Below, piece after piece: positions 13,676 through 36,216 of a DNA stretch of 64,000 bases. How positions within the stretch are numbered: the stretch's first letter is position 1; each line of letters opens with the position of its first letter. The stretch comes from Thermococcus camini. GTDB taxonomy: Archaea; Methanobacteriota_B; Thermococci; Thermococcales; Thermococcaceae. A model generated the notes under the pieces. The model made no database searches and was not told the origin of the DNA. It saw nothing but the letters and a program-made list of their open reading frames with translations. The DNA lies in the NCBI RefSeq assembly GCF_904067545.1, contig NZ_LR881183.1, positions 1,058,277 to 1,122,276 on the forward strand, read 5' to 3'. The position numbers and the translations under genes were made by a program.

Positions 13676-13854
13676 TCCGTTCCCTCCAGGAAGGGGGCGG
13701 GTCATCGGCCCGCGAACCTCTCCGCCCCTGCGTCAGCTAATACCGACGTCATCACCCATCAGACTGGGCAAGGGTCGTCATCCGCTTGGAGGGTTAAGGC
13801 TAACCCACCATTTAAACCTTTGGGGAAAGAAGGCCGAATGAAGGGAGAAGGAAA

Positions 13855-20542: not shown

Positions 20543-20590
20543 TTCCATACACCTCCAAACTTTGGTCTAGTCCGATTGACTAGGATGGCT

Positions 20591-20598
20591 TTTTAAAT
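20591..20598 (-). promoter_or_regulatory. TATA box of the EF-1alpha gene
   Basis: On the minus strand it reads ATTTAAAA, preceded by a BRE-like CGAAAG. Transcription would start near 20570, giving a leader of about 25 bases that contains GGAGGT. Confidence 0.55.
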
Positions 20599-20727
20599 CT
20601 TTCGAACCTCGGCCCCCTCGGGCGGGAAACCCGCAGTTTATCGGGGAGGCCTCACGAGTTCCGTGCTTAACTTACGAAGCGGGTTTAAAAACTTAACTAC
20701 GGGGGTTTGAACAGGAAAATGTAAACC

Positions 20728-24963: not shown

Positions 24964-25731
24964 TTATCTTGTGGCAGGAGTTTGCCGACCCTCCTGCCCT
25001 GAGGAAGAGGGGCCTTCTTGGGCCCCCTTCCTCTTTGAACGTTCTATATGTGGTTTGAACAGCTTCTCGACCTCTTCCTGAACCTCCTCCGCTTCTCCGC
25101 TCAGGACGAGCTTTCCGTTGCCTATGACAACCACCCAGTCCACTATCGGAATCAGCGGCTCCCAGATGTGGCTTATGACAACGAAGTTGGTCTTTTTCAT
25201 CTCCTCGATTATCTCAATAACCCTCTCCATGCTGTCGAAGTCTATGTTCGCCAGGGGCTCGTCGAGGAATATCAGCTCGGGCTTCCCTACGAAGGCCTGT
25301 GCAAGGGAAAGCCTCTTGAGCATTCCCGATGAGTAGCCGCTTATCCTCTTGTCAAGGAAGCCTTTGACCTCAAACAGCTCCGCAACCCTCTCGACTTCTT
25401 CCTCACCGAACCCTTTGCTCTCGGCGAAGAGGGTCAGCCATTCCCTGCCCGTAGTGAACTGCGGAAAAGCCGGCGGGTCGTAGGCAACGCCGAAGCGGGC
25501 CTTAAGTCGTCCATTGTTCCAGGGGACTTCACCGAAGACCCTTATCTCTCCGGCGCTTGGACGATAAACGCCGGTGGCGAGCTTGAGGAAGGTGCTCTTT
25601 CCGCCGCCGTTGGGGCCGAGGATTAGGGTGATTCCCTTAGGAATGCCCACGGTAACGCCGTCGAGCGCCTTGATGCTCCCGAAGTGTTTCTTCAGGTCTC
25701 TCGCCTCGATTATCACCTGCCCCACCTCCAC
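24964..25731 (-). CDS. ABC transporter ATP-binding protein
   Basis: The product has 255 residues with Walker A GPNGGGKST, signature SSGMLKRL, Walker B LIFLDEPLANID and a switch histidine in VISHIWEP. It is the last gene of a seven-gene operon (30278 to 24964) and overlaps the preceding small membrane-protein gene by 19 bp. Its partner is the ABC-2 permease at 26171. Substrate unknown; export of a product of the same operon is inference. Confidence 0.9.
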   Translation of the reverse strand: MEVGQVIIEARDLKKHFGSIKALDGVTVGIPKGITLILGPNGGGKSTFLKLATGVYRPSAGEIRVFGEVPWNNGRLKARFGVAYDPPAFPQFTTGREWLTLFAESKGFGEEEVERVAELFEVKGFLDKRISGYSSGMLKRLSLAQAFVGKPELIFLDEPLANIDFDSMERVIEIIEEMKKTNFVVISHIWEPLIPIVDWVVVIGNGKLVLSGEAEEVQEEVEKLFKPHIERSKRKGAQEGPSSSGQEGRQTPATR

Positions 25732-26174
25732 ACGATAAAAGCCAAAAGGATTGCAAAGAAGGAACCGCTGATGTATAGGGAGTTTTGGACCTCCTTGGTC
25801 GGGTAGTTTTTGATGAAACGGAAGGAGCAGGTTAGCTTGTCCGTGCCGTTGTTGATTATCAGGTAGTCCCCCTCCCCCGGCAGAATGAACTGATACTTTG
25901 CGTGGCCGTAGACTGCGTGTTTATCCACCTGCTCTCCTGTTATAACGTCGTATACCTCAACGACCCCGTTGCCGTTGCAGGATGCCTCAACCAGCGAGCT
26001 GGTGGGAGTGTGCGCCTTTACGGTGCTGAGACTGGTGAAGTTTCCCTGTCTCTCGACAGGCTGAAGAAACACCGGGCCGATTGAGCCGACCTGGTTTTCA
26101 TAGGAACTGTAAACCCAGAGCGAGCCAATGGTGAGCAGGAGCATCGCAGAGAGCAGGGCACCCCAGAACCTCAC
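25713..26174 (-). CDS. Two-helix membrane protein of the ABC operon
   Basis: The product has 153 residues with one helix at each end (ALLSAMLLLTIGSLWVYS and FFAILLAFIVWRW) and an extracellular middle of ~100 residues with two cysteines and N-x-S/T sites. I chose GTG 26174: GGAGGG lies 7 bases upstream and the start overlaps the permease stop (GTGA). The upstream ATG at 26204 would lie deep inside the permease gene. It may be an accessory of the transporter. No family recognised. Confidence 0.7.
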   Translation of the reverse strand: MRFWGALLSAMLLLTIGSLWVYSSYENQVGSIGPVFLQPVERQGNFTSLSTVKAHTPTSSLVEASCNGNGVVEVYDVITGEQVDKHAVYGHAKYQFILPGEGDYLIINNGTDKLTCSFRFIKNYPTKEVQNSLYISGSFFAILLAFIVWRWGR

Positions 26175-26938
26175 ACCACATCCCTCCTTCTGATGAGAAC
26201 CCACGAGAGGGCAAAGAGCGCCAGCGGGACGAGAAGGCCCCAGCCGATGTAGTTAATTGTGAACGGTGTAAAGTCAGTGCTCCCGCTCCTGGGTATGGCG
26301 TTGATGAAGAGCACCGGCGGGAGGTTGGAAAGGCCGGTAACCCTGGGCGCGTATATCACCGCAAAGCCGACCATGAAGGCAAGAAACGCGTTCGGGGAGG
26401 CCAGTGGGACAAAGGTCGCAACCGCCACCAGGTAGAGCACAAGGAAAATTACCAGAACCAGTGCATCGCTTAGGAAGTTTGAGGTTATCTGGGGGAGGTA
26501 GTTCAATATGCTTGCGTAGGTGGTCACGCTAACGTAGGCGAAGGGCAGCAGTATCATGGTGAATCCGTAGATTAAGAGCGAGAGAAGCTTGACTCCGAGG
26601 AGTTCATCGTTGGAGTAAGGAAGCGAGTAAATCGAACGCGCGACACCGCTGTCCCTGTCATAGCGGAACATTAAAGCACCGAGGAGCAAAACCAGGAAGC
26701 TCACCAGCGTCCAGACGTCGTCGAGGGAGAGCATGCCCTGTATAGCCGTTGAAACTCCAGATGCTTTTGAAGGCCCGAAGAGTTCAATCTGGGTTCCAGA
26801 GGCAAAACCCATGCCCGAGTTTACCGCCATCAGGGACTGTTTCATGGCCATTCCTGCCAGGAGTACTCCAAACAGCAGGAGGACGTTCTTAACCAGGTCG
26901 TTCATCTCCCACCGGAAGAGTGTGTAAAGTCTTCCCAT
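26171..26938 (-). CDS. ABC-2 type transporter permease
   Basis: The product has 255 residues with six predicted membrane helices and an N-terminal cytoplasmic RLYTLFRWEMND, as in ABC-2 permeases. It starts 4 bp after the preceding secreted-protein gene and overlaps the next gene by 4 bp. It pairs with the ATPase at 24964. ABC-2 systems are usually exporters. Confidence 0.85.
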   Translation of the reverse strand: MGRLYTLFRWEMNDLVKNVLLLFGVLLAGMAMKQSLMAVNSGMGFASGTQIELFGPSKASGVSTAIQGMLSLDDVWTLVSFLVLLLGALMFRYDRDSGVARSIYSLPYSNDELLGVKLLSLLIYGFTMILLPFAYVSVTTYASILNYLPQITSNFLSDALVLVIFLVLYLVAVATFVPLASPNAFLAFMVGFAVIYAPRVTGLSNLPPVLFINAIPRSGSTDFTPFTINYIGWGLLVPLALFALSWVLIRRRDVV

Positions 26939-26942
26939 GTGT

Positions 26943-28013
26943 CTACTCCCTCCGTTTCTTTATCTTGGTCAGCCCGACAATAATCAAGAGAATAGCGAGA
27001 GAACCGTGGAAGACGTAGGCTGTTTTAACGTCCGGCTTGCGAAAGCTAATGGTGTTGAGTCTTTTGGCGCTCGTTTTGAACAACTTAAGCACAAGTCCTG
27101 TTGCATAGGAGTCATCATGTCTGACTTCTGCCTGATATAAAGCATATTCATCGGAAAATGAGGCGCTTAAAATGCCAACGGCCCAGAGGTCAGGCCCGCC
27201 GTTGGGTGTGAACACGAGATTTCCATCCGACGCGTCAAAGGTGTAAATCAGGGTTGCCATCTGGACAATCTCGATGGGATACCCCTTCCCAAATGGCTGG
27301 GTTAGGTTGAACGAATACCCCTCAGTAACCACGGTCTTGAGGGGTGGGTAATACGTGATGTTCTTCCACTTCTTCGAATTCTTGTTATCCACCGTTACCC
27401 TGCCGATAACGGTACTGAAGGGATACTTGGAAAAAGCACTGCCCTTTTCGAGCGGGTGCAACGGACTGTCAAAAAGCATCGTGTGACCGTAGGCTTTTCC
27501 GTCCTTTACCACCTGCATGTCGGCTTCTCTGATGAGATGCGATCCAGTTATCGTGACTTCCCGAAGTTTGAAGATGTACCAGGTCCAGTCCTTGAAATCC
27601 GGGTCATGACTTTTCTCGGTTTTCGCTGAGAGAACATCCACATCCTTCCAAAAGGCTGGGGGGTGAACCCCTTTGGGGAGAACTGTCATTACGGTGACGT
27701 TGGTAAGTTCTATTTGAACGTGTGAAATGATATACTCATTGTTTTCATCGGAGAGGTTGAACCTTATCACGGTGTCATTGTACGTTTTTATCACGTAGAG
27801 AACTCCGGAGTAGTTGTAAATCATCAGCGACGTGGTTACCCAGTCCGGTTTGTCCCCGTGGGAGACGCGATATTGAATGTATGGGTCGTACCTCTGGGCG
27901 ATGTATTCGATGTAAACTCCTGGCTTGATCCAGTATGGGGCCGCGAGCGCTGAATGAAGGCCTCCAATGAGGATGAATATTGCCACTAACATCGAGGGAA
28001 TGACGTTTCTCAT
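26943..28013 (-). CDS. Secreted membrane-anchored protein, paralogue 3 of a tandem triplet
   Basis: The product has 356 residues: signal peptide, then PYWIKPGVYIEY and RYDPYIQY, a central AYGHTMLF, a PDLWAVGI segment and one C-terminal helix followed by KIKKRRE. The same landmarks occur in the two genes upstream. The gene overlaps the preceding one by ATGA (28010-28013), and GGAGGAAATC precedes the ATG. Topology predicts a large extracellular domain anchored at the C-terminus. No known domain recognised. Confidence 0.75.
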   Translation of the reverse strand: MRNVIPSMLVAIFILIGGLHSALAAPYWIKPGVYIEYIAQRYDPYIQYRVSHGDKPDWVTTSLMIYNYSGVLYVIKTYNDTVIRFNLSDENNEYIISHVQIELTNVTVMTVLPKGVHPPAFWKDVDVLSAKTEKSHDPDFKDWTWYIFKLREVTITGSHLIREADMQVVKDGKAYGHTMLFDSPLHPLEKGSAFSKYPFSTVIGRVTVDNKNSKKWKNITYYPPLKTVVTEGYSFNLTQPFGKGYPIEIVQMATLIYTFDASDGNLVFTPNGGPDLWAVGILSASFSDEYALYQAEVRHDDSYATGLVLKLFKTSAKRLNTISFRKPDVKTAYVFHGSLAILLIIVGLTKIKKRRE

Positions 28014-29071
28014 TTTGATTTCCTCCCGCCTTTTGCTGTCATGATAGAGCCGAGGAGAACCAGCGACCCCCAGAACGCGTACTTCCACGGCGTTTTAGCC
28101 TTTGAGAACGGTACCTCTTCTACTCTCTGAAACTCCGCATTAGTGTCATACAACGGTAGCAGGCCGGCCCATACGGAGTTTCCCTTTACTATCTGGTCAT
28201 AGGCCACGCGCTCGTCCATAAAGGATGCAAAAGGAATCCCTATAGCGGCAAGGTCAGGGGAAATCAGTATCGAGAGGGTAGTCGGGGATAACACCATTCC
28301 CGTTGCTGGATCATAACGCAAATCCCCAGGAGTCTGGGTGGTGAACTCCACGAGACCCTCCATAACAAGTGGCGATCCCAGGAGAGACAGCGTGGCAACA
28401 GGGGGCCCGAATTCCCTGTAATATGTTTTCGAGGGTTTATCCTTCACGGACACCCTTTCGACTTCCATCGTCCAGTTAAGGGTCGGAAAAACCACAAAGG
28501 TCTCGTTCTCCTGCGGAACCAGACCTGGATCGGTATCAATCCAGAGGAAAGTGTGACCATAGTGGGTTCCGTCCAGGCGGAAAACGGCACCATCGCTCTC
28601 CCGTATTCTGTAAACACCCTTAATCCTGAGGGAACGGAGGTGCACCTTGTATTCAAGGGTACCTGAATTGCTCGGGGTTGGTATGGTTTCAACTTTTATG
28701 ACCTCGTTTTGTTCCCAGATTGGACTAAGGTTCCCTCCAGTTGGGACGGTGACTTTAACCGTTACATTGCTCATGTCAATACGGACGCCGACCGTTAGAT
28801 AACCGTCAATCTCCTCCAAAATAGTGAACTTGAGGTAAGTGTCGTTGTACGCGTAGATTCGGTAGGAAGCGTTGTGGGAAAGGTAAACAAGAAACGCAGT
28901 TCTTTGCTCGGTTGAGTATCCCTGGGAGAGCTGATACTGGATATACGGGTCATACCTCATAGCCGCATACTCAACATAGACTCCCGGCTTGACCCAGTAC
29001 GGGTGTGCGTATGCAGGGAAAACAGGAAGAGATATCATAAATAAAACCCATAAACCCCTAAGAGCCTTCAT
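28010..29071 (-). CDS. Secreted membrane-anchored protein, paralogue 2 of a tandem triplet
   Basis: The product has 353 residues: signal peptide ending near A-Y-A-H, PYWVKPGVYVEY and RYDPYIQY, then HYGHTFLW, SPDLAAIGIPFASFMDE, YDTNAEF and a C-terminal helix with GGRKSK. ATG 29071 overlaps the stop of paralogue 1 (ATGA) and GGAGG lies 8 bases upstream; the longer GTG start at 29086 is unlikely. It shares more sequence with paralogue 3 at the N-terminus and with paralogue 1 at the C-terminus. Confidence 0.75.
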   Translation of the reverse strand: MKALRGLWVLFMISLPVFPAYAHPYWVKPGVYVEYAAMRYDPYIQYQLSQGYSTEQRTAFLVYLSHNASYRIYAYNDTYLKFTILEEIDGYLTVGVRIDMSNVTVKVTVPTGGNLSPIWEQNEVIKVETIPTPSNSGTLEYKVHLRSLRIKGVYRIRESDGAVFRLDGTHYGHTFLWIDTDPGLVPQENETFVVFPTLNWTMEVERVSVKDKPSKTYYREFGPPVATLSLLGSPLVMEGLVEFTTQTPGDLRYDPATGMVLSPTTLSILISPDLAAIGIPFASFMDERVAYDQIVKGNSVWAGLLPLYDTNAEFQRVEEVPFSKAKTPWKYAFWGSLVLLGSIMTAKGGRKSK

Positions 29072-30096
29072 TGCCTCTTCCTCCACGCCACAACCACTGC
29101 GAGCACCAGGAGTAGGACAACGGCCGTGTATAGATACTTCGTATCCGTTTCAGATTTTGAAAACTGTACCGTCTCAGCGACCCCAAACTCTGCATTGGTG
29201 TCGTAAAACCCTATTCCGTAGGTGTAGAGCTTCCCGTCCTCCTTGTGGTTCCTGCTCATGTACATGCCCCACTGGTCCATAAAGTACACCAGCTTGACAC
29301 CGCATGCCGCGAGATCAGGGGCTGTCGGAAAAAGGCCAGTAACAAACATACCTGTGGATCCATCGAAATACAGTATCGCATCGGTTCCTGAGAAGGAAAC
29401 CTCCCCAATCGGGGTCTTTACACTCATACCTCCCGCGGTTCTGACGTAGATCACCGGCTTCGTGAAATTGGAAGTTCTAGTGATTACACTCACGTCCAGG
29501 GAAGTAACGTTCACCACCTTTGAAACGGAATTGCCTGCGAAACCAACAAGCTGGAACGGCTGATCTACCGTTATAGGGGCGTTTCCCAGATCGTCCCAGA
29601 GGATTGTGTGGCCGTAGTTTGTGCCTGCGGTATCGAAGACCATGCTGTCCTCCTTTCTAATCTTGTAGGTGCATGAGTACCTAGCCTCCGTGACGTTGAA
29701 TAGCGTCTCGTTGTCAAGGGTCTTTTTTGAGATCAAAGCTGATTCCGGCCACAGCACTACCGTCTTGTCCCCGAACTGCTTTATTGTTACGTTAAACATC
29801 TCCAAAATCAGCTTCATGAGCAGGTAGTCTCCTTCGTCGCCCAGGATGGTAAATGTCAAGTATGTGTCCCCCATAGCGGACATCTGGATGTAAGTACCAT
29901 TAACCTCAAGAACAACGTCACCCGTTGAGAGAGACATGCCCGTTGATGCATACTTACGGGCAATTTCCTCGTGTCTTAATGAGGCATACTTAATATAAAC
30001 TCCCGGTTTGGCCCAGTATGGCATGGCATTAACAGGATACGCACCGATTAGCACGATCAAAAGAATCACGAGGAATTTCAGGTTTTTGCTGTTCAA
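29068..30096 (-). CDS. Secreted membrane-anchored protein, paralogue 1 of a tandem triplet
   Basis: The product has 342 residues: signal peptide, PYWAKPGVYIKY, NYGHTILW, APDLAACGVKLVYFMDQ, YDTNAEF, then a C-terminal helix and WRKRQ. The start is TTG at 30096; its GGAGGTG lies 5 bases upstream, inside the end of the small peptide gene, and the TTG overlaps that gene's stop (TTGA). The coupling implies it is made together with the small peptide. Confidence 0.75.
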   Translation of the reverse strand: MNSKNLKFLVILLIVLIGAYPVNAMPYWAKPGVYIKYASLRHEEIARKYASTGMSLSTGDVVLEVNGTYIQMSAMGDTYLTFTILGDEGDYLLMKLILEMFNVTIKQFGDKTVVLWPESALISKKTLDNETLFNVTEARYSCTYKIRKEDSMVFDTAGTNYGHTILWDDLGNAPITVDQPFQLVGFAGNSVSKVVNVTSLDVSVITRTSNFTKPVIYVRTAGGMSVKTPIGEVSFSGTDAILYFDGSTGMFVTGLFPTAPDLAACGVKLVYFMDQWGMYMSRNHKEDGKLYTYGIGFYDTNAEFGVAETVQFSKSETDTKYLYTAVVLLLVLAVVVAWRKRQ

Positions 30097-30560: not shown

Positions 30561-31364
30561 TCAGCTCCACGTCTCGGCTATGACGTCGTGCTTGTGGATG
30601 CTCTCGTTGCTGATGACCTTCACGTGGATCCTGCCCTTGAACCTCTCCTTCGCCCTGGCGAATATCTCGCGCGCAACGTCTTCCACGAACTTCGGATTGG
30701 CGTGCATTCCCTGAACCACGGCGTTCTCGTCCACCGTCTTCAGCAGGGTGTACGTCGGGTGGCTGAACGAACTCTCGACCACGTCAATCATGTCTTCTAA
30801 GGCTATCTCCTCATCAAAGGCCGTCCTCACCTCAAGCTCGCCTATGGCTCTCTGTATGTGGGTCTTTCCGTTGTTGTTGGCCATCGCGTGGGGGCAGGCG
30901 GTGTTTCCGATGACCTTGACGCGGAGAACCTTCTCAAAGGTTCCGTCGTAGTGCTTTATGACCCCGACCTCGACGTCGTAGGGCTCGTAGGTGGTCTTTC
31001 CACTGGCGGGGGTTTCCCTTGGAATGATGAGGTGGGTTCTTATCCACACCTCCGCCCTCTTGTGGGGGTGCTTCCCTTCCAGGCGGCCGATTATCGCTCT
31101 CCCCAGCTCTTCGAGCGAGGAATGAGCCTCCATGACCTCCTCCTCAACGGCCTCGCTCATGGCCTCGGTTATGCTCTCGACCAGCCTGCTCATGTGGATT
31201 CCTTTCTTCTCCTCGGGGACGTCGATGGTTATCTCGAAGAGCGGGAGGAACGTGTAGACCTTCCCCTTCCAGTTTATCTTCGCAACGCTCCTCAGGTTGG
31301 TGATTCCGACGCGGTGAAGGCGCTCCCTTATCTCGGGCCTCTCCTCCTGGGTCTCGACGAACAT
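30561..31364 (-). CDS. mptA: GTP cyclohydrolase MptA (FolE2 family)
   Basis: The enzyme converts GTP to 7,8-dihydroneopterin 2',3'-cyclic phosphate, the first step of archaeal pterin synthesis, using Fe(II). The 267-residue protein carries [29 protein letters not shown] and an ending [10 protein letters not shown], as in COG1469. ATG 31364 follows GGGTGAT; ATG 31370 is an alternative. It follows the DUF4129 gene by 56 bp on the same strand. Confidence 0.92.
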
Positions 31365-31420
31365 GGACATCACCCTCTCTTTTTAGGGGCCTCTAAGCGC
31401 GCCCCCTTTTAAAGCTACCC

Positions 31421-32197
31421 TCACCTCAGAAACTCCATGAGCCGGTCGTAGCTCTCGCGCGCAGCTGTGGCATCTTCCTCGCTCAGCCTTCCGGCGTACT
31501 TGGCCTTCTCGAAGAGTCTGGTAAGGACGTCGAGGTCCTTTAGGTCGGGAAAGACTTCCCTCAGCCTCTCCTCGTGCTCCCGGTGGGTCCAGCTCTTCCG
31601 GTAGGGATAGCCCTTCTCGACGAGACCGGCGACCACGTTCTTGTACATTCGGATAACCTTTTCCGCGGGGGTTCCTTCAATGGCATCGTAGGTAAGTTCC
31701 GGCTCGAACTTGACCTCCGGAACGGGCCGTCTCTTCTTAGTTCTCCTGGCGGTTAGTACGATAGCCACGAAGAGAAGGAAGGGAATCAGGTAAGCCCAGC
31801 CTGGAAACTGATTCCAAACAGTCACGAAATCGCCGGAGGTGACGTTGTACCAGACTCCCTCGAGACCCCTGCCTATCTCCTTACCCCCCACCAGCCTCTC
31901 CGGCTCCCTTTTGAAGAAGATTAAGTAAACCGCCACCACTATTGCCAGGAGCGTTATTATTCCCGCCAGCGGGTTGCTCTTCCCATTCCTCACGCCGTGG
32001 GCGCTGAGGCGGCCTTCGATGGCCAGCTTGACGACGTAACCCGCAGCACCGAAGAGAAAGAGCGAGGATAAGAAGAAGTACCACTCGAAGTTGAAGGTCG
32101 TCGTGCCCCCGTGAACCCCTGAGGACTGTATGAGGGAGAAGATAACCACGAGGGCAAGCATAGCGAGTGCCGCGGTTTTCCGCTGATCCATACCCAT
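31421..32197 (-). CDS. DUF4129-domain membrane protein linked to the McrBC-like genes
   Basis: The product has 258 residues: four helices (residues ~8-23, 38-58, 76-95, 133-152), then a cytoplasmic domain with the DUF4129 pattern (EKVIRMYKNVVAGLVEKGYPYRKSWTHREHEERL ... LTRLFEKAKYAG). DUF4129 proteins usually sit with MoxR AAA+ ATPases, DUF58 and transglutaminase genes. Here the gene starts 24 bp after mcrC on the same strand, so it is likely the third gene of that operon. Starts at 32197 and 32191 are both possible. Confidence 0.78.
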   Translation of the reverse strand: MGMDQRKTAALAMLALVVIFSLIQSSGVHGGTTTFNFEWYFFLSSLFLFGAAGYVVKLAIEGRLSAHGVRNGKSNPLAGIITLLAIVVAVYLIFFKREPERLVGGKEIGRGLEGVWYNVTSGDFVTVWNQFPGWAYLIPFLLFVAIVLTARRTKKRRPVPEVKFEPELTYDAIEGTPAEKVIRMYKNVVAGLVEKGYPYRKSWTHREHEERLREVFPDLKDLDVLTRLFEKAKYAGRLSEEDATAARESYDRLMEFLR

Positions 32198-32221
32198 CAG
32201 TCGAGGTAATGTGCACCAGCT

Positions 32222-33625
32222 TTAAACCTTTTCTCCGTTCAGCACGCACACGGACTCGAGGAGGTTCCTAACGTTTCCCGCGATTTTTCCGTCGAGGACC
32301 ACTCCCCTGCGCGCTATGAGCACGTCCCTGCCGATGTGCGACAGTTCGTACCCGACGATTCCAAGGGGAGTGCCGTCGAAGAAGCTGAAGGTCTCGACCC
32401 CCTCATCGAACATGTCGGGAAGCCACCCGTTGTACTGTCCCCTCAACCTCGGATATACGATGAGCGCCCCGCCTCCGGAGATGCGGGAGTAGGAGTACAC
32501 CTGGTAGAGCTCCCCGCTGCTTCTGACGAGTTTGCGCCACCAGGCCTCTCCCATCTTCACGCTCAGGTTCCTGTACTTCACCTCCAGAACGCACCGGCCA
32601 CCGGGCATCTGGATCAGCATGTCGGGCCTCGGGGGGCCGAAGGTGAACACCGCGCCCATTTTGGCCTCTATCTCGGACGCGTTTCTGATTATATGCGGCA
32701 GGAGCTGCTGCCTGTGGACCCTTCCCTTCCCGGAGAGGGCCGTCAGGATCGTGTGGTAAACGAGATCCTCGAACAGGCGGTCCATCTCTATGAATATCCC
32801 CGGAGCCGTGAAGCCCCCACGGGAAAGCTTTCCAAAGCCCGCGAGTATCATAGTTGCCAGGTGGAAGATCGGCCGGAACCTCTCATTCAGCGGGTTGAAG
32901 GTAACCCTCTCTATGTCCCCCTGCCTGAGCGGGCCAACGTCGGCAAAGTATCGAATCAGGGCCTCCGCGGCCCTGGCTATGCCCTCCCACGCTGAAACCT
33001 CCACGACCACCTCCAGAGCTGCCTTCAGGACCCTGTTGAGTGAAGTATCAACGTCGAGAACCGCGTGTCTTACCGGAACTTCCCTGCCGAGGGGAGGCCT
33101 TCTGGCAAGGCGCGAGAGGAGAACCCTTCCCCGTATCGTCCGGAGCTCCTCCTCGACCTCGGAGTACTCCTGGTAGAGACCGTGGAAGAGCTCCCTGCTC
33201 AAAAGGTAGGTGTAGAGATACAGGAAGAGCTCGTGAACACCTCCTTCGCCGCGGGCGTAAGTTGATACCGCCTCCTCTATCTCCCGTCTTCCCAGCCCCA
33301 GTCCGCCGCTGAGGTTCATAAGGCTGAGGAAAAAGCGCAGGGAGCGCGCCTCGTCTGGGTCGCGTTTGTAGGGCCTCGGGAGAACCTGGATCATGAAGCC
33401 CGGCTCCCCCAGGTGGTAGGCGAAGCCCACGCTGCCGTGAGCCTTGATGTAGTACTCCCCCCTCCGGGTGTCGTACTTGAGGCTCAAAACCTCGTGCTCC
33501 CTGCCGTAAAGCCCGTTTATGACCTCAAAGAACCTCTGAAGGCTCTCCGGAGTAACCTCTAAGCCCTCGGTTCGGATCGCGCTTAGGTACTTCCTCTGGA
33601 ACTCGTAGAGGGTTATCCTCCTCAT
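32222..33625 (-). CDS. mcrC: McrC-family nuclease subunit
   Basis: The product has 467 residues. Family features (PF10117) are RGRVLL at 166-171, MDRLFEDLVY at 281-290 and a PD-(D/E)XK core with D335, E348 and K350 (PDMLIQ...LEVKYRN), plus Q375-x-Y-S-Y. In McrBC systems McrC binds the McrB ring, stimulates GTP hydrolysis and cuts DNA. Its ATG overlaps the stop of the McrB gene (ATGA), so subunits are translationally coupled. Confidence 0.88.
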   Translation of the reverse strand: MRRITLYEFQRKYLSAIRTEGLEVTPESLQRFFEVINGLYGREHEVLSLKYDTRRGEYYIKAHGSVGFAYHLGEPGFMIQVLPRPYKRDPDEARSLRFFLSLMNLSGGLGLGRREIEEAVSTYARGEGGVHELFLYLYTYLLSRELFHGLYQEYSEVEEELRTIRGRVLLSRLARRPPLGREVPVRHAVLDVDTSLNRVLKAALEVVVEVSAWEGIARAAEALIRYFADVGPLRQGDIERVTFNPLNERFRPIFHLATMILAGFGKLSRGGFTAPGIFIEMDRLFEDLVYHTILTALSGKGRVHRQQLLPHIIRNASEIEAKMGAVFTFGPPRPDMLIQMPGGRCVLEVKYRNLSVKMGEAWWRKLVRSSGELYQVYSYSRISGGGALIVYPRLRGQYNGWLPDMFDEGVETFSFFDGTPLGIVGYELSHIGRDVLIARRGVVLDGKIAGNVRNLLESVCVLNGEKV

Positions 33626-35739
33626 TCCGCCCTCACCAGCCGACGAAGGGCCTCCATGAAGGACTCTCTGTCCATCATCACTATCCTGCCCCTGTCGTCT
33701 ATGAACTCGAATCCAGGATAAAACGACCCCAGCTGCTCCCAGCTCCCGTAGAAGTACTCCTGGAAGAGGGGCAGTATCTTGTGGTAGAACACCAGATAGA
33801 GGTCCTCCTCGGGGTTCTCGGACGAGGCTATATCCAGGAAGTAGCCGTGGCCGATGGTATAGTCCTTGCCCTTCTCCCGCTCGATTATGGAGTTCAGCCT
33901 CGAGAGAAGGTGTTCCATGCTCACCCCGCCGACTTCCATTCCAGCCAGCAGCTCTGGCCTCGGGAGAACCTCGTAGAACGCGAACCTCCTCCTCAGGGCT
34001 ATGTCGAGCAGCGCTATGCTCCTGTCGGCCGAGTTCATCGTGCCGATGATGTAAAGGTTGGGCGGAACGGCGAAAAGTTCACCTGAGTACGGGAGCCTGA
34101 CTATCGTCTCGCTCGGGCCGCCAAGTCTCTTGTCAGTGTCGAGGAGGGTTATCAGCTCCCCGAAGATCCTGCTGATGTTTCCACGGTTTATCTCGTCTAT
34201 GACCAGGTAGAACTCCCTCTTCGGTGCGAGCTTCAGGTTTTCTCCCGCTTTTCTCCGTTCAAGGAACTCGAGAACCGCTTTTTTCATCTCCCCGTACGTG
34301 GCGTTCTTTTTCCTGAACTTCTCTGGCAGGGAGTCGTAGATTGCCTCTATCGAGATCCTCTTAAAGACGCCATCGACTACGTCGTAAACCACCCCGCCGC
34401 TTCCCTTCGTCGGCCGGAAGCCCTCAACGAAGTCCTCGTAGCTGAAGGACTGGTGGAACGATACAAACTCGGGCTTAACGGCCACTTTCCTGGCCAGGTA
34501 CGTCTTTCCGGTGCCGGGGGGACCGTACAGTATGACCTGTCCAAACTTCCTGAGGAGGGTTCTTATGGACTCAACTTCCTCCACGCCCTCCTCTGGCTCC
34601 GGGGTTTCAAGGCCCTCCCGTGATTCCCCAGGTAAGGCCTCCCAGCGTATCTCGTAAAGGTAATCCACGTCCCTGCGGAGGTAGTAGTAGAACCTCTGTC
34701 CCATAGCCCTGTAGGCGGTTCTTCCAAAGTAGAGGATCCTGCAGTCTTCAGAGACACCCGCGTACTTGGGATCAACGACGCCCGGGACGTACCTCCCGAG
34801 CGAAAAGAGCCCCTCAAAATCGTCCCTGCCTATTTCCCTGGCCTCGAGGAGGCGCTCAAGAGACACCACCCCCGCATTTATTCCCCCACCGTAGACCCCA
34901 GTTATCAGGAAAAGGCCCCTCGATGTAAAGCGCAGGTATATCAGCTCGCCTGGAAGGAGAATACTTCTGCTTTTTTCGGGGGAAAGAAGGACGATTTCTC
35001 TGCTCCCTTTGCTCCCGAGAACGGCCACAAAAGAGCCATTATCCATGAGATAAAGGTCTCCCACGGGTTTTCTACCACCCCTCAAAGGCCCCGTACTCGC
35101 AAGCCTTTCCATGCCCTCCCAGAACTGGCGCGGTGTGTAATACGGGAAGACCGGGAGGTTTATCCTTCCAACCCGAAGTTCATGTTTCTGCCCGTCCTTC
35201 CACGTGTAAAGGACATAAACCGCATCGTCGCTGTCTGTTATGGCGTGAAGGTAGGCATAGCCGTCAGCCGGCGTGGGGAGTTTCACCACCCTTACTCCCT
35301 CGGGTACCATGTAATCCAGCGTTGGGTCGCCAAAAACCACGAGCCGTTTTCTCGGGGTGAAGCTAACGTACAGGGGGACCTTGGAAAAATCCACAACGAG
35401 CGACTCCTTTTCCGGATCCTGCGACGTCACGGGATATATTACCGCCCTCCCCGGGCTGCATTTTGTGAAAACAGCGAATTCGTTTTCCCCCGGGAGCAGT
35501 ATCGCTTCATCGGCACAGGGGACAGCAACGCCTTTCTCCCAACCCTGCGCAACCGAGCCGTTCGTGTTAAACACGTGAAGGAATCTGGAGTCATCCTCCA
35601 GCCGCACCATGACCACAAGGTACTCGCCGGAGGGGAACAGTGCCGCTTCCTCGATGACGAAGCCGAACTCCTCGTACTCTGTTTTTAGAAAGGTGTTTAT
35701 GGAATAAAAGGAATTCCTAATGGGCTCTACCTCCACCAT
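33622..35739 (-). CDS. mcrB: McrB-like AAA+ protein with a predicted beta-propeller N-terminus
   Basis: The product has 705 residues. The C-terminal ~310 are an McrB AAA+ domain: Walker A GPPGTGKT (406-413), Walker B LVIDEINRGN (512-521), the family's MNSADRS (568-574) and ALRRRF (581-586). The first ~370 residues are not the usual DNA-binding domain. They contain about seven repeats of paired beta strands ending in G or D turns (for example FPSGEYLVVMV, LPGENEFAVFT, DSDDAVYVLYT, DNGSFVAVLG, SEDCRILYFG), as in a beta-propeller. ATG 35739 follows GGGTGGT. The propeller may sense a protein or RNA ligand (inference). Confidence 0.82.
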   Translation of the reverse strand: MVEVEPIRNSFYSINTFLKTEYEEFGFVIEEAALFPSGEYLVVMVRLEDDSRFLHVFNTNGSVAQGWEKGVAVPCADEAILLPGENEFAVFTKCSPGRAVIYPVTSQDPEKESLVVDFSKVPLYVSFTPRKRLVVFGDPTLDYMVPEGVRVVKLPTPADGYAYLHAITDSDDAVYVLYTWKDGQKHELRVGRINLPVFPYYTPRQFWEGMERLASTGPLRGGRKPVGDLYLMDNGSFVAVLGSKGSREIVLLSPEKSRSILLPGELIYLRFTSRGLFLITGVYGGGINAGVVSLERLLEAREIGRDDFEGLFSLGRYVPGVVDPKYAGVSEDCRILYFGRTAYRAMGQRFYYYLRRDVDYLYEIRWEALPGESREGLETPEPEEGVEEVESIRTLLRKFGQVILYGPPGTGKTYLARKVAVKPEFVSFHQSFSYEDFVEGFRPTKGSGGVVYDVVDGVFKRISIEAIYDSLPEKFRKKNATYGEMKKAVLEFLERRKAGENLKLAPKREFYLVIDEINRGNISRIFGELITLLDTDKRLGGPSETIVRLPYSGELFAVPPNLYIIGTMNSADRSIALLDIALRRRFAFYEVLPRPELLAGMEVGGVSMEHLLSRLNSIIEREKGKDYTIGHGYFLDIASSENPEEDLYLVFYHKILPLFQEYFYGSWEQLGSFYPGFEFIDDRGRIVMMDRESFMEALRRLVRAE

Positions 35740-35770
35740 TACGACCACCCAGAGGAAATTGGGGGCAGGG

Positions 35771-35778
35771 TATATAAA
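35771..35778 (-). promoter_or_regulatory. TATA box of the mcrB operon
   Basis: The sequence TATATAAA reads TTTATATA on the minus strand, preceded by CCAAAGG. Transcription would start near 35748, so the leader is very short. Confidence 0.55.
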
Positions 35779-35799
35779 CCTTTGGCCGGTTAGAACGGG

Positions 35800-36216
35800 T
35801 TATATGCCCTTCAGGCCGGGCCTATTGCCCGACCTTTCGAGCATGTAGTATACCGTCCTGAGGGGAATTCCCATGCGGGCGCTCACCTCTTTCACGGGAA
35901 CTCCTCTGCTGACAAGCTCCCGTATCCGCATAACGGTCTTCTCGTCGTACTTCCTGGGCCTCCCCCGGGGATAGCCCTCGGGGACGAGTTCTATGCCCAT
36001 CTGGGCGAGTGCGGCGATGACCCTCTTGGAGACCTTGGGGTAGAGGCTGGGGGGACAGGAGATTTTGCGCACGTTGGGGGCCCGCTCGAGTATCCTGACG
36101 AGTATCTCCTTCGTCGGACGGAGGTTGATGTAGACCTCGGTGACCTCCTCGTTCAGGGACTCCCTGAGCTTTGCTATCAGCTCTGCATTGTTGCGAGCCT
36201 TTATCTCCACCCGCAT
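35800..36216 (-). CDS. DUF1699-family protein with a resolvase-type helix-turn-helix
   Basis: The product has 138 residues. The N-terminal part (VEIKARNNAELIAKLRESL ... NVRKISCPPSLYPKVS) matches DUF1699 as I recall it. The C-terminus has RGRPRKYDEKT, an AT-hook-like arm, then a helix-turn-helix (VMRIRELVSRGVPVKEVSARMGIPLRTVYYML) like those of recombinases. It is probably a DNA-binding regulator. It starts 4 bp after DUF530 at the end of the topoisomerase VI gene train. Confidence 0.75.
   Translation of the reverse strand: MRVEIKARNNAELIAKLRESLNEEVTEVYINLRPTKEILVRILERAPNVRKISCPPSLYPKVSKRVIAALAQMGIELVPEGYPRGRPRKYDEKTVMRIRELVSRGVPVKEVSARMGIPLRTVYYMLERSGNRPGLKGI

Follow-up and report, generated by a model that had tools for sequence, protein, structure and literature searches.

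A predicted beta-propeller at the front of an McrBC-type motor and nuclease in a conserved chromosomal slot of Thermococcus

In a 64,000-nucleotide stretch of the Thermococcus camini chromosome (the window) we identified an McrBC locus whose McrB carries a predicted seven-bladed beta-propeller at its N-terminus. The locus probably encodes a restriction motor and nuclease in which the modified-base reader has been replaced by the propeller, and which acts on foreign DNA, chiefly that of replicating plasmids. The McrBC engine and the plasmid restriction by the T. kodakarensis orthologue were known already; a propeller front end on McrB was recognised in none of the open-access papers searched. 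Computed here were the fold, the conservation of motor and nuclease motifs, the assignment of TK0794-TK0795 as the orthologue and the single chromosomal slot. Features of the locus, in window coordinates, are:

35800..36216, minus strand: DUF1699-like / HTH protein, conserved left border of the slot (slot survey)
35765..35780 (approximate), minus strand: putative BRE/TATA-like element CAAAGGTTTATATACC, 5' of mcrB (sequence and alignment of orthologue upstream regions)
33622..35739, minus strand: mcrB, 705 aa, predicted beta-propeller N-domain and McrB-type AAA+ motor (ORF, Pfam, model, PDB match)
34642..35736, minus strand: predicted N-terminal seven-bladed beta-propeller, residues 1-365 of P0001, the McrB sequence used in searches (AlphaFold2 and Foldseek)
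33622..34557, minus strand: McrB AAA+ motor, P0001 residues 394-704, with Walker A GPPGTGKT, DEIN, MNSADRS and RRRF (Pfam AAA_5, orthologue alignment, match to T. gammatolerans McrB, TgMcrB)
32222..33625, minus strand: mcrC, 467 aa, PD-(D/E)xK nuclease subunit with D335, E348 and K350 (PF10117, conserved motif, TgMcrC match)
32217..32229 (approximate), minus strand: putative TATA-like element AAAAGGTTTAAAG, overlapping the mcrC stop, 5' of the DUF4129 gene (sequence)
31421..32197, minus strand: DUF4129 membrane protein, 258 aa, four predicted hydrophobic segments (Pfam and sequence)
30561..31370, minus strand: presumably a FolE2/MptA-like gene, conserved right border of the slot (slot survey)

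The mcrB and mcrC genes overlap by four bases (ATGA), and 24 bases separate mcrC from the DUF4129 gene; with all three on one strand and each frame supported by Pfam, the three-gene layout described in the initial annotation is confirmed. The ATG at 35739 was judged the best mcrB start (alternatives are GTG at 35748 or 35736), and P0001 begins one codon past it, at 35736. This ATG is preceded by a GGTG-like site and, about 30 bases upstream, by the candidate element CAAAGGTTTATATACC; both recur in relatives, the latter in the alignment of upstream regions of near relatives. The promoter element proposed earlier for mcrB thus has a candidate in the sequence. A second TATA-like candidate, AAAAGGTTTAAAG, lies about 27 bases upstream of the DUF4129 gene, making it doubtful that the three genes share one TATA box. 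A similar element precedes DUF4129 in two genomes without mcrBC (G003 and G031). Elsewhere in the window, three tandem paralogous proteins of ~340-380 aa are encoded at 26943-30096 beside ABC transporter genes (24964-26938), and Rfam identified a fluoride riboswitch (RF01734; 58663-58737, plus strand), an SscA RNA (20566-20662, minus strand) and a C/D box RNA (13730-13785, minus strand).

The N-domain was modelled with AlphaFold2 (McrB residues 1-390) from an alignment of 21 orthologues that are 36-72% identical to T. camini McrB over this region. The model has a mean pLDDT of 87.7 and a pTM of 0.86; residues 1-365 form the propeller and residues 368-390 a low-confidence linker. Its 28 DSSP strands, when grouped by hand, give seven groups of four antiparallel strands in a ring. 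In Foldseek searches against the PDB, essentially all of the matches listed were propellers, from E 1.5e-6, including the prolyl oligopeptidase propeller, Utp18, Cdc20, LRP6 and Rae1. The TM-scores of these matches are moderate (0.2-0.48), which we attribute to distant propellers being aligned with register shifts. At the sequence level, the N-domain matched no Pfam family, including WD40 or other repeats, YTH, EVE, DUF3578 and B3, and had no meaningful match among PDB sequences. Convincing relatives beyond Thermococcus were found neither among 115 genomes of the phylum, where there was one weak partial match (E 0.003), nor in one short-peptide-pattern scan of genome contigs, and in these searches the family occurs only in Thermococcus. 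Together, the model and searches support a beta-propeller at the McrB N-terminus in place of any known domain that reads DNA. This bears out the earlier description of N-terminal beta-hairpin repeats, for which structure prediction returned no known DNA-binding fold. With a pI of 5.0-6.4 the domain is on the whole acidic; this speaks against unspecific binding to DNA but does not count against specific recognition. Conservation of the top (BC and DA) versus bottom (AB and CD) loops of the propeller did not differ significantly (p 0.10). Among open-access papers naming both (subscription papers were outside the scope), we recognised no McrB with a propeller.

Behind the propeller, the features of the McrBC family are present: a McrB-type AAA+ signature and, encoded directly downstream, a McrC with PD-(D/E)xK residues. 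Pfam AAA_5 covers McrB residues 401-585 (E 7e-16), and GPPGTGKT, DEIN, MNSxDRS and RRRFAF are invariant in all 21 orthologues. Hydrolysis of GTP rather than ATP, stimulated by McrC, is consistent with this signature motif. McrC matches PF10117 (McrBC; E 2.1e-49) and retains an intact PD...EVK nuclease motif, its PD and ExK residues being conserved throughout the 21 orthologues. PADLOC returned matches to the motor only.

The closest structural comparison is the McrBC of T. gammatolerans (6ut3, 6ut5, 6p0f), which is alike in its AAA+ motor (E 5e-75 to 6ut3) and McrC nuclease (E 4e-23 to 6ut5_G) but differs in its YTH N-domain, which binds 6mA DNA (PMC7680126) and has no similarity to the propeller. 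The TgMcrB alignment starts only past the N-domains, which do not match each other. TgMcrB itself was recognised among the genomes surveyed (in G014, by a full-length match to 6ut5), where its gene lies at another place than the slot. The T. camini motor also aligns to E. coli McrB; the E. coli system shares the GTPase motor signature and a PD-(D/E)xK McrC, but its N-domain is DUF3578/SRA-like and flips methylcytosine. LlaJI is similar in having a McrB-type motor directed by something other than a modified-base reader, but its B3 domain recognises a DNA site that is unmodified, and methyltransferases belong to the system (for these N-domains see PMC7680126 and PMC12707154). A seven-bladed propeller has been described on an E. 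coli Mrr-type nuclease (PMC9519451), which is bacterial and of the Mrr family rather than a McrBC pair. CoCoNuT systems, with their coiled-coil CnuB/CnuC tandem architecture, are nearly absent from archaea (PMC11090510). With motor and nuclease motifs intact and the N-domain unmatched, the T. camini locus thus joins a McrBC engine to another kind of front end.

Potentially addressing what this engine does, the locus has an experimentally studied orthologue. One genome of the set (G010) encodes an RNase HII that matches PDB 1io2, which we take to be the T. kodakarensis enzyme, over 213 residues. With top6A and top6B being TK0798 and TK0799 (PMC6401487), counting from top6B/top6A along the G010 locus (L048) makes the HTH gene TK0796, mcrB TK0795 and mcrC TK0794. 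Gene order and the RNase HII match therefore identify TK0794-TK0795 as the T. kodakarensis orthologue (McrBC1). It occupies the same locus, and its McrB is ~49% identical to that of T. camini, with an N-domain of the same propeller family (38% identity); it differs in having no DUF4129 in the slot. The fold of this N-domain is not described in the literature searched.

A 2026 study (PMC13385129) implies deletions of ~3.5 kb and ~3.9 kb, in agreement with both T. kodakarensis mcrBC pairs. According to this study, whose statements are based on two plasmid types, deletion of TK0794-TK0795 gave the highest transformation efficiency, with similar trends for dam-/dcm- plasmid DNA. Autonomous (replicating) plasmids gained from the deletion, integrative plasmids did not, and methylated integrative plasmids gained little. 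The deletion strains grew more poorly, not better. The study itself assumes m5C recognition and reads the phenotype as m5C restriction; it makes no mention of a propeller. By mass spectrometry, TK0795 is among the proteins of isolated chromosomes (PMC7325993). The plasmid restriction, the cost to growth and the association with the chromosome are published results on the T. kodakarensis orthologue; its identity of ~49% to the T. camini McrB weighs against carrying them over in full.

The idea in the initial annotation that the N-terminus reads something other than modified DNA fits plasmid restriction with or without dam/dcm methylation. A membrane arm through DUF4129 is not supported. That the locus is instead a conventional Type IV McrBC, with the propeller as a new reader of 5mC, 5hmC, 6mA or another mark, appears unlikely. 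Some propellers do bind DNA, DDB2 being one. Characterised McrB relatives also bind DNA via the N-domain (PMC7680126, PMC12707154), and the m5C interpretation in PMC13385129 points the same way. However, in that study the deletion effect persists without dam/dcm methylation, and methylated integrative plasmids gained little. In addition, the N-domain is acidic, and neither Pfam, the model nor Foldseek revealed a domain of known modified-base kind (DUF3578/SRA, YTH or EVE). Restriction of unmethylated and of replicating plasmids makes a plain modified-base reader somewhat less likely. Strains of E. coli that are dam-/dcm- often keep EcoKI adenine methylation, so a modified base could still be what is read; such a target is compatible with this residual methylation and with the fact that integrative plasmids face other demands.

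In the propeller-targeted restriction that we favour, McrB would form a GTP-driven AAA+ ring, McrC would be the PD-(D/E)xK nuclease of the pair, and the propeller would serve as the targeting module. The target would be foreign DNA, above all replicating plasmids, encountered close to the chromosome in the cytosol. Recognition would pass through the propeller and would not simply detect dam/dcm methylation; the ligand might be a structure in the DNA, a protein brought in by the plasmid or virus, or a replication or chromatin protein of the host that sits on the invader. DUF4129 would lie outside the mechanism, as a separate occupant of the slot.

Across 61 Thermococcus genomes, all 21 mcrBC copies of this family lie in one slot, with a topo VI/DUF530/HTH block on one side and the folE2-like gene on the other (contig breaks hide one side or a joint of the slot in G032 and G080). 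The slot lies between 31370 and 35800 of the window, and its content varies among genomes: mcrBC or DUF4129 alone, the two together in either order, or neither. The trees of mcrB, mcrC and DUF530 disagree, and two genomes (G002 and G029) hold mcrBC of other lineages; the DUF530 data reject those mcrBC groupings (AU p 7e-5 and 2e-6, for groups picked after the trees were seen). This conflict indicates that mcrBC moves between species, yet it is found at only one slot. Exchange possibly occurs by recombination in the conserved flanks.

The slot also bears on whether this is a housekeeping machine for chromosome or DNA processing, with plasmid restriction as a side effect, which we consider quite improbable. 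Such a role would accommodate the growth defect on deletion, the presence of TK0795 in isolated chromosomes and the unvarying locus beside topo VI. However, the mcrBC of the slot is missing from 40 of the 61 genomes and has been horizontally exchanged; patchy presence and horizontal exchange are expected of defence genes, not of housekeeping genes.

The DUF4129 gene appears to share the slot, rather than a function, with mcrBC. Its product matches DUF4129 in Pfam (E 6e-10), and a positively charged stretch precedes the DUF4129 domain, which, judged from sequence, suggests that the domain is cytosolic. The other three DUF4129 genes of T. camini lie near AAA_5 (MoxR-type) genes, as the initial annotation would have it; the slot copy is alone, with no MoxR of a MoxR-DUF58-DUF4129 cluster at the slot. 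In 59 scored genomes the slot contains mcrBC only (12), mcrBC-DUF4129 (5), DUF4129-mcrBC (4), DUF4129 only (23) or neither (15), where a contig end is close by in a few genomes, DUF4129 is broken in G062, G021 and G025 have one stop at the match edge, and folE2 was not seen next door in G022 and G023. DUF4129 is thus present at the slot in 9 of 21 genomes with mcrBC versus 23 of 38 without (Fisher p 0.28, odds ratio 0.49), and phylogenetically independent pairs gave no linkage, at low power. As a functional partner of mcrBC, DUF4129 was ruled out by the slot survey and this co-occurrence; by present evidence it is an independent slot occupant and not part of the system. The three-gene module proposed earlier, a defence or regulated-death system with DUF4129 tethering the propeller-McrBC to the membrane, can draw on the same-strand adjacency with its 24-base gap, on nine genomes where DUF4129 directly flanks mcrBC and on a four-base overlap with the mcrB frame in G006, but is highly implausible: the conserved linkage it needs is absent, gene order is not conserved, DUF4129 has its own TATA-like element, T. 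kodakarensis restricts without DUF4129 at the locus, and TK0795 is found with the chromosome.

Other McrBC loci were also identified. The second of T. camini encodes an 817-aa McrB (L120:3519-7416; C1:1261518-1265416) in the same place as T. kodakarensis McrBC2 (L122). An N-domain model built from two sequences has low confidence (pLDDT 63.6) and again matches propellers, and the McrBC1 and McrBC2 N-domains have no convincing sequence link (hhalign probability 2.8%). This second propeller-like N-domain suggests that McrBs of Thermococcus have taken up propellers more than once. The third locus (L121:4555-7995) encodes a 665-aa McrB whose N-domain has no Pfam family and does not look propeller-like. 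Two further McrBs of the genus (L053 and L054; 920 and 1120 aa) have a motor that is split by a long insert after Walker A; the insert in L053 matches an EVE domain.

We regard a further step as conceivable rather than probable: the propeller would sense a replicating plasmid or virus via a bound protein or DNA structure and load the GTP-driven nuclease on it with no reading of modification. Such an anti-plasmid system would stand apart from Type IV restriction, and McrBs of Thermococcus would have gained propellers perhaps on two occasions. If the McrBC2 propeller is confirmed, both published T. kodakarensis McrBs would carry propellers. More generally, a neighbouring gene with the same orientation can share a slot without being a partner. 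McrBC systems are by default taken to be readers of modified DNA; here the reader would be a propeller. T. kodakarensis McrBC1 is a major plasmid barrier by genetics and deletion strains exist, so the question of what the propeller recognises can be tested now.
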